A DNA stretch of 22,492 bases from a virus: positions 1 through 22,492 of IMG/VR virus record IMGVR_UViG_3300018405_000067; one strand, written 5' to 3'. How positions within the stretch are numbered: position 1 is the stretch's first letter; every line of letters starts with the position of its first letter. The position numbers and the translations under genes were made by a program. Below are positions 14,287-21,405 of this stretch, piece after piece. Below the pieces are notes generated by a model. That model saw nothing but the letters and a program-made list of their open reading frames with translations, made no database searches and was not told the DNA's origin.

Positions 14287-14496
14287 TCAATCCTTAGCAA
14301 GATTTCTTACTTTAAAAGTAAAAGTATTTCCGCGAGTTTTCATGGCGTGAACTTCAATGCCATAGTTTCCCCACACAGTTACCCAGCAATACTGATTTTC
14401 ACCGCTTTCAAAGCCGCGATTCATTACCACAGTTACAAACTGCATAGCCCTTACATCACTGAAAGATGATTCATTGTGTACGATTATCTTGCTCAT
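14287..14496 (-). CDS. Hypothetical protein (69 aa)
   Basis: MSKIIVHNESSFSDVRAMQFVTVVM followed by a beta-rich C-terminal half (QYCWVTVWGNYGIEVHAMKTRGNTFTFKV). The pattern 'SKI.VHNES...D..A' recurs in small phage proteins of unknown function near replication genes. SD is ACGGAG (minus strand, 14508-14503), 6 nt before the ATG. It lies 14 bases after the helicase gene. Confidence 0.65.
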   Translation of the reverse strand: MSKIIVHNESSFSDVRAMQFVTVVMNRGFESGENQYCWVTVWGNYGIEVHAMKTRGNTFTFKVRNLAKD

Positions 14497-18448: not shown

Positions 18449-20037
18449 AAACAGTAGAGTTAGTTCAAGGCTCACAAGAGTGGCATCAGTTCCGCGCCAC
18501 AAAATTCACAGCATCAGACGCCCCGGCAATGCTTGGGCTTTCTAAATACAAAACGCGCCAGCAGTTACTGCATGAAAAATCCACTGGCTTAGCCGAAGAA
18601 GTGACGCCACAAATGCAGGCGTTATTTGATCGCGGCCATGCAGCAGAGGCAGAAGCCAGGCCGCTGGTCGAGGCTCAAATAGGCCAAGACCTTTACCCGG
18701 TGACTGGCGTATGTGATGAACCAGGCTTAGAGTTTCTGGCGGCATCGTTTGACGGCTTGACCATGTGCGAGACAACAGCCTGGGAGCATAAGCTGTGGAA
18801 TGAAAAGCTGGCGCAGTTCATTTCTGACAACCAAGATTTGCCCGATACGCACTGGCCGCAAGTGGAGCATCAGCTAATCGTTTCTGGCGCGTCTAGCTGT
18901 GTTTTTACGGTGTCTGACGGCACAGCAGAGCGCAAGGTTGACTTGGAATATAAAAGCCAGCCAGAGCGCCGACAGGCGGTTATCAATGGATGGAGTCAGT
19001 TCGCTAAAGACTTGGCCGGTTACGTGCCGGAAGAAAAAGCCGAAAAGATAACCGGCGAAGTGATCAGAGATTTTCCTGCACTAACTTTTGAGTTTAACCG
19101 CACAAGCCTGACTATCCAGTCAAACCTGACGGCGTACAAAGAGGCAGCAACTAACCTGGTTGAGCAGAGCAAAAAGCCGCTTGAATCAGATCAAGACTTT
19201 GCCAACGCTGAATCAATGGTTAAGTTTTTCAAAGCAGCCGAAGATAAGCTGTCAGCGGTTAGTGAGTCGGTAGTTGGTCAAGTTGCCGATATTGATCGCT
19301 TTGTCAAAGACCTAAAGGAAATCAGTGAGTCAATCCGAGCAGCCAGGCTTAATACTGAAAAGCAGGTTAAAACCCGTAAAGAGACGATCAAGCTGGAAAT
19401 CGTACAGGCTGCAAAAACTGATTTGCAGCAATACGCGCTTTCAGTTGAAAAGTCGATAGGCTACCCGTTGCCGCATTTGTCAGCAGACTTTGCTGGAGCC
19501 ATCAAAGGCAAAAAGACCGTCCAAAGCCTGAAAGATGCTTGTTCGGATGAATTGGCGCGGGCGAAAATCGAAGTTGACAGCCAGGCGGCGATCATCAGCA
19601 AAAACGCCGCAATCATTGCCGAGCATGGCAAGAGCTTAAACTTCCTGTTTAACGACTTTACGCAAATTTACCTAAAAGCGCATGACGACTTTTTGTTGCT
19701 AGTGCAGAGCCGGGTTAACGACTACGAGGCTGAGCAGCAACGTAAGGCAGAAGCCGAAAAGCTGCGCCAAGAAGAGCTAAAGCGCCAGCAAGAAGCCGCA
19801 GAGCAGGCCAGAATAGAGCGCGAAGCAATGTACGCGAAAGCGGCAGAGCAGGCAAACCAGCAGCAGTCCGAAACGGTTGCAGCTATCCAGCCAATGCAAA
19901 AGCCTGAATCATTCACCCGCGCTGGCGAAGCTCTAAAAAATGCGCCAGAATCGGTAGCTGTAACGGTAATTTTACCCGCTGATAAACTTAACGAGCTGTC
20001 AGCATTTGCAATCACAATCGGCGCAATTATTAAGTAA
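18445..20037 (+). CDS. YqaJ/lambda Exo-type exonuclease with long C-terminal extension
   Basis: 530 aa from ATG 18445; the frame continues upstream into recT, but that part is shadow. Residues 1-200 are the nuclease: GSQEWHQFRATKFTASDAPAMLG, RGHAAEAEAR (Glu68), AASFDG (Asp103), WEHKLW (Glu114, Lys116) and WPQVEHQL (about 137-143), matching the YqaJ/lambda Exo catalytic set (Glu, Asp, Glu-x-Lys). Such enzymes digest 5' ends to make ssDNA for the annealing protein. The remainder (about 210-530) is a long helical, coiled-coil-rich region with a Glu/Gln-rich stretch (YEAEQQRKAEAEKLRQEELK) and a C-terminal beta segment. Lambda Exo is only 226 aa, so this extension is large; it may hold the annealing protein, SSB or the fork. 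Confidence 0.9.
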   Translation: MKTVELVQGSQEWHQFRATKFTASDAPAMLGLSKYKTRQQLLHEKSTGLAEEVTPQMQALFDRGHAAEAEARPLVEAQIGQDLYPVTGVCDEPGLEFLAASFDGLTMCETTAWEHKLWNEKLAQFISDNQDLPDTHWPQVEHQLIVSGASSCVFTVSDGTAERKVDLEYKSQPERRQAVINGWSQFAKDLAGYVPEEKAEKITGEVIRDFPALTFEFNRTSLTIQSNLTAYKEAATNLVEQSKKPLESDQDFANAESMVKFFKAAEDKLSAVSESVVGQVADIDRFVKDLKEISESIRAARLNTEKQVKTRKETIKLEIVQAAKTDLQQYALSVEKSIGYPLPHLSADFAGAIKGKKTVQSLKDACSDELARAKIEVDSQAAIISKNAAIIAEHGKSLNFLFNDFTQIYLKAHDDFLLLVQSRVNDYEAEQQRKAEAEKLRQEELKRQQEAAEQARIEREAMYAKAAEQANQQQSETVAAIQPMQKPESFTRAGEALKNAPESVAVTVILPADKLNELSAFAITIGAIIK

Positions 20038-20051
20038 CGGAGAAAAATGGA

Positions 20052-20360
20052 ATGAACCAACCATTAGATAAAGGTCGCGTTGCTTTCATCGCGGAAAAGT
20101 ACCAAAGCCAAAACGGTGATAAAAATCGCTACGCAACATTAGGTAGGGCGACAAAATGGCCTGGCGATAACGGCGGGCCTGAAAACGTAACTATCGAGCT
20201 TGACTCTATGCCGATTGGTCACAGTGGACCGCTTAACCTGTTTATCTTTTGGGATAGCCAGCAGCAACAGGCGGCACCGCAGCAACAATACCATCAGCAG
20301 CCGCAGCAGTATCATCAGCAACCACAACAGCAGCCAGGTTACGGCTACCCGCGAAAATAA
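20052..20360 (+). CDS. Conserved phage protein with Q/H-rich tail, in SSB position
   Basis: 102 aa. The first 68 residues form an ordered domain (LDKGRVAFIAEKYQSQNGDKNRYATLGRATKW; NVTIELDSMPIGHSGPLNLFIFWDS) with the look of a small beta barrel. The remainder is low complexity, Gln/His/Pro-rich, with a 21-bp tandem repeat (YHQQPQQ twice) ending GYGYPRK. It follows the exonuclease, where SSB often sits, and the architecture (compact domain plus disordered Gln/Gly-rich tail) is SSB-like. But no acidic tip (DDDIPF type) is present and the fold is not proven. ACGGAG lies 9 nt upstream of ATG 20052; another ATG at 20047 opens a two-codon minigene. Confidence 0.72.
   Translation: MNQPLDKGRVAFIAEKYQSQNGDKNRYATLGRATKWPGDNGGPENVTIELDSMPIGHSGPLNLFIFWDSQQQQAAPQQQYHQQPQQYHQQPQQQPGYGYPRK
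20289..20330 (+). repeat. 21-bp tandem repeat encoding YHQQPQQ x2
   Basis: Two tandem copies of seven codons within the Q/H-rich tail, identical in protein and divergent at several third positions. That implies selection on the peptide or an old slippage event. Further CAG/CAA-rich codons flank it. Confidence 0.7.
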
Positions 20361-20361
20361 C

Positions 20362-20391
20362 ACGGAGGCGGGGCGAAAGCTCCGCGATTTT
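20362..20391 (+). promoter_or_regulatory. Hairpin-bridged (accommodated) ribosome binding site
   Basis: The SD ACGGAG (20362-20367) is 24 nt from the only available start, ATG 20392, too far to act directly. Between them lies GCGGGGC (20368-20374), loop GAAA (20375-20378) and GCTCCGC (20379-20385), a 7-bp stem (one G-U) with a GNRA loop. Folding takes out 18 nt and leaves an effective 6-nt spacing. Phage T4 genes 25 and 38 use the same device. Confidence 0.65.
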
Positions 20392-20580
20392 ATGCGACCA
20401 TTAAAAACAAGAATTGCTAATCTTGAATATAACATCAGGAACGCAAAGCAGGCCTTGCAATATGCGCCAGCAGATGACCGGGCGAGAGAGTTGCGGGAAA
20501 TCGCAAGGATGGAAGAAACTCTGCTTGCTCTGGAAAAGCAGCTTAACCAGGAGGCTAATAATGCTGGTACTAAGTCGTAA
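20392..20580 (+). CDS. Small coiled-coil protein (62 aa)
   Basis: MRPLKTRIANLEYNIRNAKQ, then ALQYAPADDRARELREIARMEETLLALEKQLNQEANNAG. Nearly all helix with heptad-like spacing, probably an antiparallel or dimeric coiled coil. No domain name known. ATG 20392 is the first start codon in frame after the previous gene's stop; the SD lies across a hairpin. Its 3' end overlaps the csrA start by 20 bases, so translation of csrA may be coupled to it. Possible roles such as an accessory recombination factor are only suggested by location. Confidence 0.65.
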   Translation: MRPLKTRIANLEYNIRNAKQALQYAPADDRARELREIARMEETLLALEKQLNQEANNAGTKS

Positions 20581-20752
20581 TATCGGATCATCGGTAATCG
20601 TTGGTGACGGTCAGGACGCTGTGAAAGTAACAGTGATTGACACTAACGGCTACCAGGTTAAACTAGGATTTGAAGCGCCGCGACATATCGCAGTTGACCG
20701 GGAGGAAATCCGCGAAGCCAAAGAAAAGGACGGCATTAAATCCCGAAAATAA
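20561..20752 (+). CDS. csrA: CsrA/RsmA-family RNA-binding translational regulator
   Basis: 63 aa. MLVLSRNIGSSVIVGD, VKVTVIDTNGYQVKLGFEAP and HIAVDREEIREAKE follow the whole CsrA pattern. Leu4, Arg6 and the Arg in VDREEI (Arg47, matching E. coli Arg44), all used in RNA binding, are kept. A 3-residue insertion occurs in the first loop (GDGQDAVKV). CsrA dimers bind GGA-containing RNA, mostly at ribosome binding sites, to block or stabilise mRNA. SD AGGAGG (20549-20554) is strong and GGA-rich, hinting at autoregulation. A phage copy could redirect host carbon and motility control or time phage translation. The C-terminus is basic (GIKSRK). Confidence 0.93.
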   Translation: MLVLSRNIGSSVIVGDGQDAVKVTVIDTNGYQVKLGFEAPRHIAVDREEIREAKEKDGIKSRK

Positions 20753-20765
20753 TTTACTATTTAGT

Positions 20766-20794
20766 ATTGCAATAACGGCAGCGGTGTATTACTA
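20766..20794 (+). promoter_or_regulatory. Weak candidate promoter ahead of 20838
   Basis: TTGCAA (20766-20771), 17-bp spacer, TACTAT (20789-20794), each four of six matches to consensus. The overlapping TGTATTACTATTTACA (20785-20800) is a TGTA...TACA dyad resembling the motifs at 2549 and 10270. It occupies an 85-base gap that is open in frame to the next gene. Uncertain. Confidence 0.3.
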
Positions 20795-20837
20795 TTTACA
20801 CATAGAGCAGCACCGCTCAAAACTACGGAGAGAAAAA

Positions 20838-21023
20838 ATGCAAACAGTAACTTTCAATAACCGCGAAATGAGAATTCACTCAACAGAGTCAATCGATGGT
20901 GCATTAGGCGAGGATTTGCAAAAGCGCGGTTTCGAGCCGGTGTTTTACACGCTTGTAGGCAAGCGCGGCGGCATGGTTACTTGCTTAAAAAGCATTAAAA
21001 CTGGCGACATGATCAAATTCTAA
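20838..21023 (+). CDS. Hypothetical protein (61 aa)
   Basis: MQTVTFNNREMRIHSTESID...VFYTLVGKRGGMVTCLKSIKTGDMIKF. Small alpha/beta pattern with a beta-rich C-terminal half; no known family. The start follows ACGGAG (20825-20830) by 7 nt. The frame is open upstream through the gap and across csrA, with a hydrophobic segment just ahead, but no start codon with an SD supports a longer protein. Between CsrA and the next gene it may be part of the same early operon. Confidence 0.6.
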   Translation: MQTVTFNNREMRIHSTESIDGALGEDLQKRGFEPVFYTLVGKRGGMVTCLKSIKTGDMIKF

Positions 21024-21031
21024 AAAACAAA

Positions 21032-21047
21032 GCCGGGGAAACCCGGC
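21032..21047 (+). other. Perfect GNRA-tetraloop hairpin between genes
   Basis: GCCGGG, loop GAAA, CCCGGC: six G-C pairs closing a GAAA loop, without a following T-tract. ACGGAG of the next gene lies 5 bases downstream. It is a stable mRNA structure that could pause polymerase, protect a 3' end or shape the start site. Confidence 0.65.
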
Positions 21048-21066
21048 AATATACGGAGATTATCCA

Positions 21067-21405
21067 ATGCAATTCAAACCATTCACCAAGTCAAATAAGG
21101 CGCACAAATTCGCAGCGCCTACACCAAAAGATGCAAAGACTTTACGCTTTAGTCAAGGCAATCGAGCAGCCGCGCCGATTAACGGGCAAGATTACGTTTA
21201 CGGGCTGGCGCATATCAAAGCGGCGAGAAAGAACATTGTGACGCCTTACAACGAATATCAGGTTAACCCTATGGGCTGGATTCTGCCCGGCGCAATCTGG
21301 ACTGATAATAACGGCCGAGTACAAGACGCAGCGCGTAAAATTGACCAGATGATCAGAATGGGCGGCGGCTTGCCTAAAAACTGGCTGACAGGTGGTGCGC
21401 AATGA
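21067..21405 (+). CDS. Hypothetical protein (112 aa)
   Basis: MQFKPFTKSNKAHKFAAPTP with a basic, unstructured N-terminus, then a compact region (DYVYGLAHIKAARKNIVTPYNEYQVNPMGWILPGAIWT) and a short helix (DAARKIDQMIRMGGGLP). No family recognised. SD ACGGAG (21053-21058), 8 nt upstream. It ends in an ATGA overlap with the next gene. The aromatic centre suggests a folded domain rather than a chance ORF. Confidence 0.65.
   Translation: MQFKPFTKSNKAHKFAAPTPKDAKTLRFSQGNRAAAPINGQDYVYGLAHIKAARKNIVTPYNEYQVNPMGWILPGAIWTDNNGRVQDAARKIDQMIRMGGGLPKNWLTGGAQ

Follow-up and report, generated by a model that had tools for sequence, protein, structure and literature searches.

To our knowledge, ribosome binding sites that are bridged by a hairpin are known from two genes of phage T4 and from the thrS gene of E. 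coli. In T4 gene 38, according to the part of PMC3014915 that deals with it, the Shine-Dalgarno (SD) sequence and the AUG are 22 nt apart, and a structure between them brings this distance to 5 nt. The same part of that source describes a structure in T4 gene 25 that reduces the distance from 27 to 11 nt, and is present in close T-even phages and absent in distant relatives; changes that destabilize it reduce initiation. The thrS leader, as presented in the corresponding section of PMC3858243, has a split ribosome binding site, of which two single-stranded parts are interrupted by a hairpin. ThrRS binds this hairpin, which acts as an operator, and the second single-stranded part is rich in U.

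The leader described here was originally predicted from a single phage sequence, with T4 genes 25 and 38 named as its precedents, and the statements in PMC3014915 cited above confirm both. As in gene 38, a structure lies between the SD and the start codon, and the distance changes from 24 to 6 nt, compared with 22 to 5 nt in T4. Gene 25 keeps a longer remaining spacer (11 nt) than the present leader (6 nt). In contrast to gene 38, the leader is found behind a gene of a recombination cassette in a siphophage-like genome, and unlike the situation for gene 25, the comparison leaders assembled here span several kinds of downstream gene. Unlike the thrS hairpin, the present one is not known to be bound by a regulator.

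The leader is located in a 22,492-base virus record (hereafter, the window). This genome fragment is siphophage-like, and its tail and recombination genes are similar to those found in phages from, among other hosts, Vibrio, Shewanella and Thalassomonas. The gene immediately upstream comes after RecT and an exonuclease-like gene, and one base (C) separates its stop codon from the SD (Table 1). When the letters are read directly, the SD, the 7-bp stem with its GAAA loop, the ATG, and the distances between them (24 nt linearly, 6 nt without the hairpin) hold on every point as originally described. At its 3' end, the 62-aa open reading frame (ORF) that follows the leader overlaps a csrA-like gene by 20 nt.

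Table 1. Features of the window around the leader
Feature	Position	Strand	Remarks
Upstream gene, 102 aa	20052..20360	+	phrog_29348 (function unknown); Q-rich tail
Stop codon of upstream gene	20358-20360		TAA
ACGGAG, SD	20362..20367	+	24 nt before the ATG
Hairpin GCGGGGC-GAAA-GCTCCGC	20368..20385	+	7 bp, one G-U; flush with the SD
5' arm GCGGGGC	20368-20374
Loop GAAA	20375-20378
3' arm GCTCCGC	20379-20385
GATTTT	20386..20391	+	effective 6-nt spacer; also a weak T-run
ATG of 62-codon ORF	20392-20394
62-aa ORF	20392..20580	+	coding-like; homologue search negative
AGGAGG, ordinary SD of csrA	20549..20554	+	6 nt from the csrA ATG
csrA-like gene, 63 aa	20561..20752	+	phrog_9500, E 3.5e-20; PF02599, E 3.2e-16
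Second GAAA hairpin GCCGGG-GAAA-CCCGGC	21032-21047		just after a stop codon

A single-stranded DNA-binding protein (SSB) fold was considered for the product of the upstream gene and found no support. The gene belongs to phrog_29348, and its AlphaFold model (mean pLDDT 74) has no PDB fold match at E 0.001. In this respect the window differs from the L096/Gp157 group described below, in which the upstream gene is a phrog_743 SSB gene. Relatives of the upstream gene exist, and the 62-aa ORF is found behind none of them. In one Marinomonas MAG (L015, 2864-2890), a csrA-like gene lies directly behind a relative of the upstream gene, so this gene pairing recurs. A search of positions 20000-20900 with Rfam gave a sole match, to sucC, that is located elsewhere, scores 23.7 bits against a cut-off of 50, and was taken as chance.

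The best reading of the window hairpin, to which we assign a probability of roughly 0.6, is that it represents a spacer-folding element within a split (accommodated) ribosome binding site. In this model, the 30S subunit would pair with ACGGAG while the 7-bp stem remains folded and removes 18 nt from the path. The ATG at 20392 would then be effectively 6 nt from the SD and could reach the P site. That translation of the 62-codon ORF needs the stem is the step that we infer. The upstream gene may at the same time use it as a 3' end hairpin.

The predicted fold is consistent with this arrangement. The stem by itself is predicted at -12.8 kcal/mol, and leader pieces of 31 to 40 nt at -14.4 kcal/mol with the SD and the ATG almost unpaired (pairing probabilities per base of 0.01-0.23 and at most 0.06, respectively). 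The locus combines an SD that is too distant, a hairpin between SD and start, a workable remaining distance, and an SD and start codon that are unpaired in the predicted fold. Folding of the 39-nt leader stretch has a z-score of -3.71, with 1 of 200 shuffles as good; for an 81-nt stretch the z-score is only -0.97, which is not outstanding. This phage habitually uses ACGGAG as its SD. Ten copies occur in the window, a number reached by 8 of 100 shuffles, and six of them sit 5-9 nt before listed starts (17057, 17406, 20052, 20838 and 21067 on the + strand, and 14496 on the - strand).

The frequency of the layout by chance depends on how it is defined. A loose definition (an SD tetramer no more than 3 nt from a stem of at least seven pairs, a loop of 3-8 nt, and any of three start codons 3-9 nt further on) is matched on average 0.73 times when the window is shuffled, which makes it unremarkable to find a hairpin lying between an SD-like word and a start codon. 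A strict definition (GGAG within 1 nt of a stem of at least seven pairs, at least six of them G-C, a loop of 3-6 nt, and a start 4-9 nt further on) is satisfied in 2 of 300 shuffles.

Leaders with a similar layout are found in front of Gp157-type genes. A scan of viral contigs for GGAGGC-N5-GAAA-N5-GC-N5..7-ATG returned 89 stretches, 80 of which became loci, and all five N positions are paired in five of these (L065, L088, L085, L097 and L096). L085 has a run of six T residues and lacks an ORF, and L097 lies within a long ORF. L065 and L088 are identical in sequence; there, ACGGAG is flush with a GAAA hairpin, after which come another, normal SD and a 196-codon ORF, and bridging is not needed. 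L096 qualifies as a real leader, in the order of a phrog_743 SSB gene whose product ends in DDIPF, then GGAG, the hairpin GCGCGGC-GAAA-GCCGCGC, 7 nt, and a Gp157-type gene (phrog_253).

Homologues of the L096-type Gp157 gene were fetched by protein, which gave 36 loci. Nineteen match from an ATG, and the remaining 17, which start elsewhere or were skipped, are left uncounted. Bridged leaders precede 7 of the 19 (L147, L151, L154, L157, L158, L159 and L160), a set in which L158-L160 are near copies of one another and L157 is the pattern-found locus itself. In all seven, the SD ends 25-29 nt before the ATG, and a flush stem of at least seven pairs leaves 7-9 nt to the ATG. The other 12 leaders have no stem of six pairs in their last 34 nt; an SD-like tetramer lies 0-9 nt before the ATG in 11 of them and is missing in L152. 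Because L155 and L156 have a junction of like kind without a hairpin, with SDs 6 and 5 nt from the same start, the folded leader looks like a normal ribosome binding site into which a hairpin has been inserted.

Similar leaders also occur before other genes. A second scan, for ACGGAGGCGSGG-N5..14-CCGC-N4..9-ATG, yielded 43 stretches, every one of which was read. It recovered three known contigs (L197, L204 and L217) and revealed new Gp157 leaders, namely L182, whose gene was called by protein likeness, and L201/L220, for which the call was made by family assignment of L201. Additional leaders precede an exonuclease gene (L193 and L224; phrog_403, tested on L193), a gene for a 102-aa protein (L199 and L206), and a 144-aa ORF (L215). 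Each has the stop of a long ORF shortly upstream, and the gaps between stem and start are 6-7 nt, though the pattern allowed 4-9. The upstream proteins of L182, L193, L199, L201 and L206 end in a DDIPF- or DIPF-like tail. L215 is doubtful as a bridged leader because its upstream protein lacks such a tail and another ATG, directly after the stem, opens a 212-codon frame. The sequence TAACACGGAGGCGGGGC is common to L201 and the window. The other stretches were not counted as members: L185 lies within a long ORF, L191 and L209 have a gap of 3 and a 9-codon ORF, L192 and L214 have 6-pair stems at a loose fit, and the rest lack a flush stem.

Several further sites deserve mention. Vibrio phage 1.210.O has a tail protein akin to that of the window. 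In this phage, AAAGGA, a 6-bp GC stem and CTTTTCATT precede the annotated start of NVP1210O_47 (L013, 9335-9363), and this is possibly a further bridged site, with a T-run. At L046 (position 3886), a TAAGGAG that overlaps a stop codon is followed by a GAAA hairpin and a 123-codon ORF, which is likewise a possible candidate. Among the neighbors of phrog_743 SSB genes in 22 phage records, none of the five that were read is bridged, and 1 of 369 genomes matched. Behind phrog_743-type SSB genes in Acinetobacter phage 5W (L230) and Shewanella phage 3/49 (L232), the hairpin precedes the SD, which is the opposite of the order in bridged leaders. A search of the open-licence literature for such sites beyond T4 and thrS turned up no account of hairpin-bridged leaders in front of Gp157 or following SSB genes of phages. 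Hairpin bridging of a ribosome binding site is a known mechanism, and the layout before Gp157-type, exonuclease and 102-aa-protein genes would add cases outside the T4 group.

The arms of these leaders differ, and their pairing is preserved. In 12 distinct leaders including the window, all 83 foot pairs are standard, a count that leaves out L224, whose arms and loop are identical to those of L193, and in which L182, L193 and L215 sit one base off relative to the others, so that the number of changes looks larger than it is. When the 3' arms were re-dealt among leaders, pairing averaged 66%, and none of 5000 trials reached 83 of 83. Thirteen leaders had at first been aligned without a common register; this was reduced to nine rows (eight plus the window) for the structure count and to eight for a covariance model, with L151, L182, L193, L224 and L215 left out of both. 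Pairing is complete (63 of 63 cells) in the nine in-register leaders, two of the pairs having changed in both partners; 3 of 500 shuffles equal this pairing. The pairing evidence across leaders appears moderate, because some leaders were selected by window-derived patterns that fix part of the arms, while L147, L151, L154 and L158-L160 were fetched by protein.

The eight-leader covariance model, built without the window, ranks positions 20356-20394 first (31.9 bits, E 7.5e-6), a result that is partly circular. The next matches within the window are mostly ordinary SD-ATG sites with the stem deleted. The best score of this model among 100 other loci is 20.4; among 73 more, L185 scores 32.8 and the known leaders score 18.7-28.9. 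A model of four protein-fetched leaders gives the window leader 15.5 bits (E 0.08) and an ordinary site at 14494 15.7 bits, and a sequence-only model scores the window leader at 8.5 bits (E 0.077). As judged from these models, the resemblance of the window leader to Gp157-type leaders is clear in layout but gives no clear sign of common descent, the E-value being 7.5e-6 with the eight-leader model and 0.08 with the four-leader model.

A less probable explanation, although the best of the alternatives, is that the hairpin represents a 3' end element of the upstream gene, either an RNA stabilizer or a weak intrinsic terminator, and that the ORF is started by reinitiating ribosomes with no real need for an SD. 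The upstream gene ends 31 nt before the start of the ORF, and a terminator scan lists the hairpin, as one of 14 sites in a 6-kb region where 8.6 are expected. The exact 18-mer of the hairpin is present in 14 viral stretches, whose contexts repeat (L046 and L054 are alike, as are L049, L051 and L055), so there are fewer independent cases than 14. The stop of an ORF of at least 60 codons lies 11-41 nt upstream in 11 of the 14. The stem often extends further in these copies, and in some of them a T-rich tail follows. The copies indicate that phages use this GAAA stem-loop at the ends of genes, which is what weighs most against a reading in terms of translation alone. The end-of-gene hairpins and the window leader differ in one respect: where the next SD is clear among the exact copies (L047, L052 and L053), it comes after the hairpin, whereas the only SD of the window leader comes before it. 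In PVA1-type relatives of the upstream gene (L017-L019), a hairpin also lies between the stop and the following SD, and three different genes come next. Similarly, the second GAAA hairpin of the window (Table 1) is followed by a normal ACGGAG and a start at 21067.

The window hairpin is alone among the 12 leaders in having a T-run; its tail, GATTTTAT, has five T residues in eight after a G+C-rich stem and passes a loose scan only. However, this T-run is short and begins two bases past the stem. The 11 comparison leaders have 0-2 T residues in eight after the stem, yet stem and spacing are kept. A strong hairpin after the stop is found in 6 of 30 loci of the upstream gene (L017-L019, L036, L038 and the window). 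Moreover, an end-of-gene element would not account for an SD that directly abuts the stem or for an ATG placed 6 nt past it. The two roles, bridging and end-of-gene, may coexist.

The original proposal that the hairpin brings a distant SD to its start codon is thus upheld in part. It has good, though indirect, support from a separate family of phage leaders of like layout and effective spacing, in which pairing is kept as the arms change and the hairpin is absent where the SD is close. For the window leader itself the proposal is unproven, given that the ORF is without a homologue and that a terminator or end-of-gene hairpin is possible.

It is improbable that the 62-codon ORF is no gene, that its start is at another position, or that a +1 frameshift out of the upstream gene produces it, with ACGGAG and the hairpin being incidental. 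Such explanations draw on the chance frequency of the loose layout, on a reading frame that is open upstream to 20200 and corresponds to the +1 frame of the upstream gene, and on the result that no homologue of the ORF was found in viral contigs, genome contigs, phage records or 369 genomes of one class. Because homologues were not found, there is no covariation for the window hairpin itself. A match in L226 (E 0.008) was rejected as spurious since it lies inside a 171-codon frame, which, from a reading of its sequence, was taken as a RecX-like gene. The best family matches (PHROG, E 0.0018; Pfam, E 0.053) are too weak to name the ORF. Nevertheless, the ORF has gene-like codon usage. Its score of 0.229 bits per codon compares with an in-frame mean of 0.214 and an off-frame mean of -0.086, and is attained by 0.6% of 318 off-frame stretches, whereas the score of this frame ahead of the ATG is -0.05. 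The only in-frame ATG, GTG or TTG upstream of 20392 is the TTG at 20200, which is within the neighboring gene. Without this ORF, 200 nt would be empty in a dense array of genes, and its overlap with csrA is usual operon packing.

CsrA sites, whose core consensus is CANGGANG, are mostly located in loops. Binding of CsrA to the GGA at the stem foot was part of the original proposal. That a phage or host CsrA binds there, within CACGGAGG, and controls the ORF and, by coupling, csrA is very improbable and without specific support: positions 20361-20368 and 20504-20511 match the core, both within 200 nt before csrA and in the only such + strand cluster (5 of 2230 200-nt windows), but the window has 11 matches against 7.6 expected (14 of 100 shuffles reach 11), the GGA is unpaired beside the stem and outside the loop in the predicted fold, and CACGGAGG is also present in L147, L159, L160, L182, L193, L199 and L201, loci at which tblastn found no csrA.

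The layout precedes at least four kinds of genes (the 62-aa ORF, Gp157, exonuclease and 102-aa protein) in phages outside the T4 group. The relatives that have the same start and an SD at normal distance without a hairpin form a natural set for testing the tolerance of the 30S subunit for a folded spacer. Bridged starts would also be misjudged by gene finders with a linear score for SD spacing. A more speculative idea, which we regard as doubtful at present, is that a hairpin-bridged ribosome binding site acts in phages as a portable element, placed where modules meet behind recombination or SSB genes; the window would be a far-flung, marine-type instance of it. The hairpin would then end the upstream message and also set the spacing for a swapped-in gene. 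If so, such a portable site would let downstream genes be exchanged without re-tuning initiation, and it could also be a point of control.
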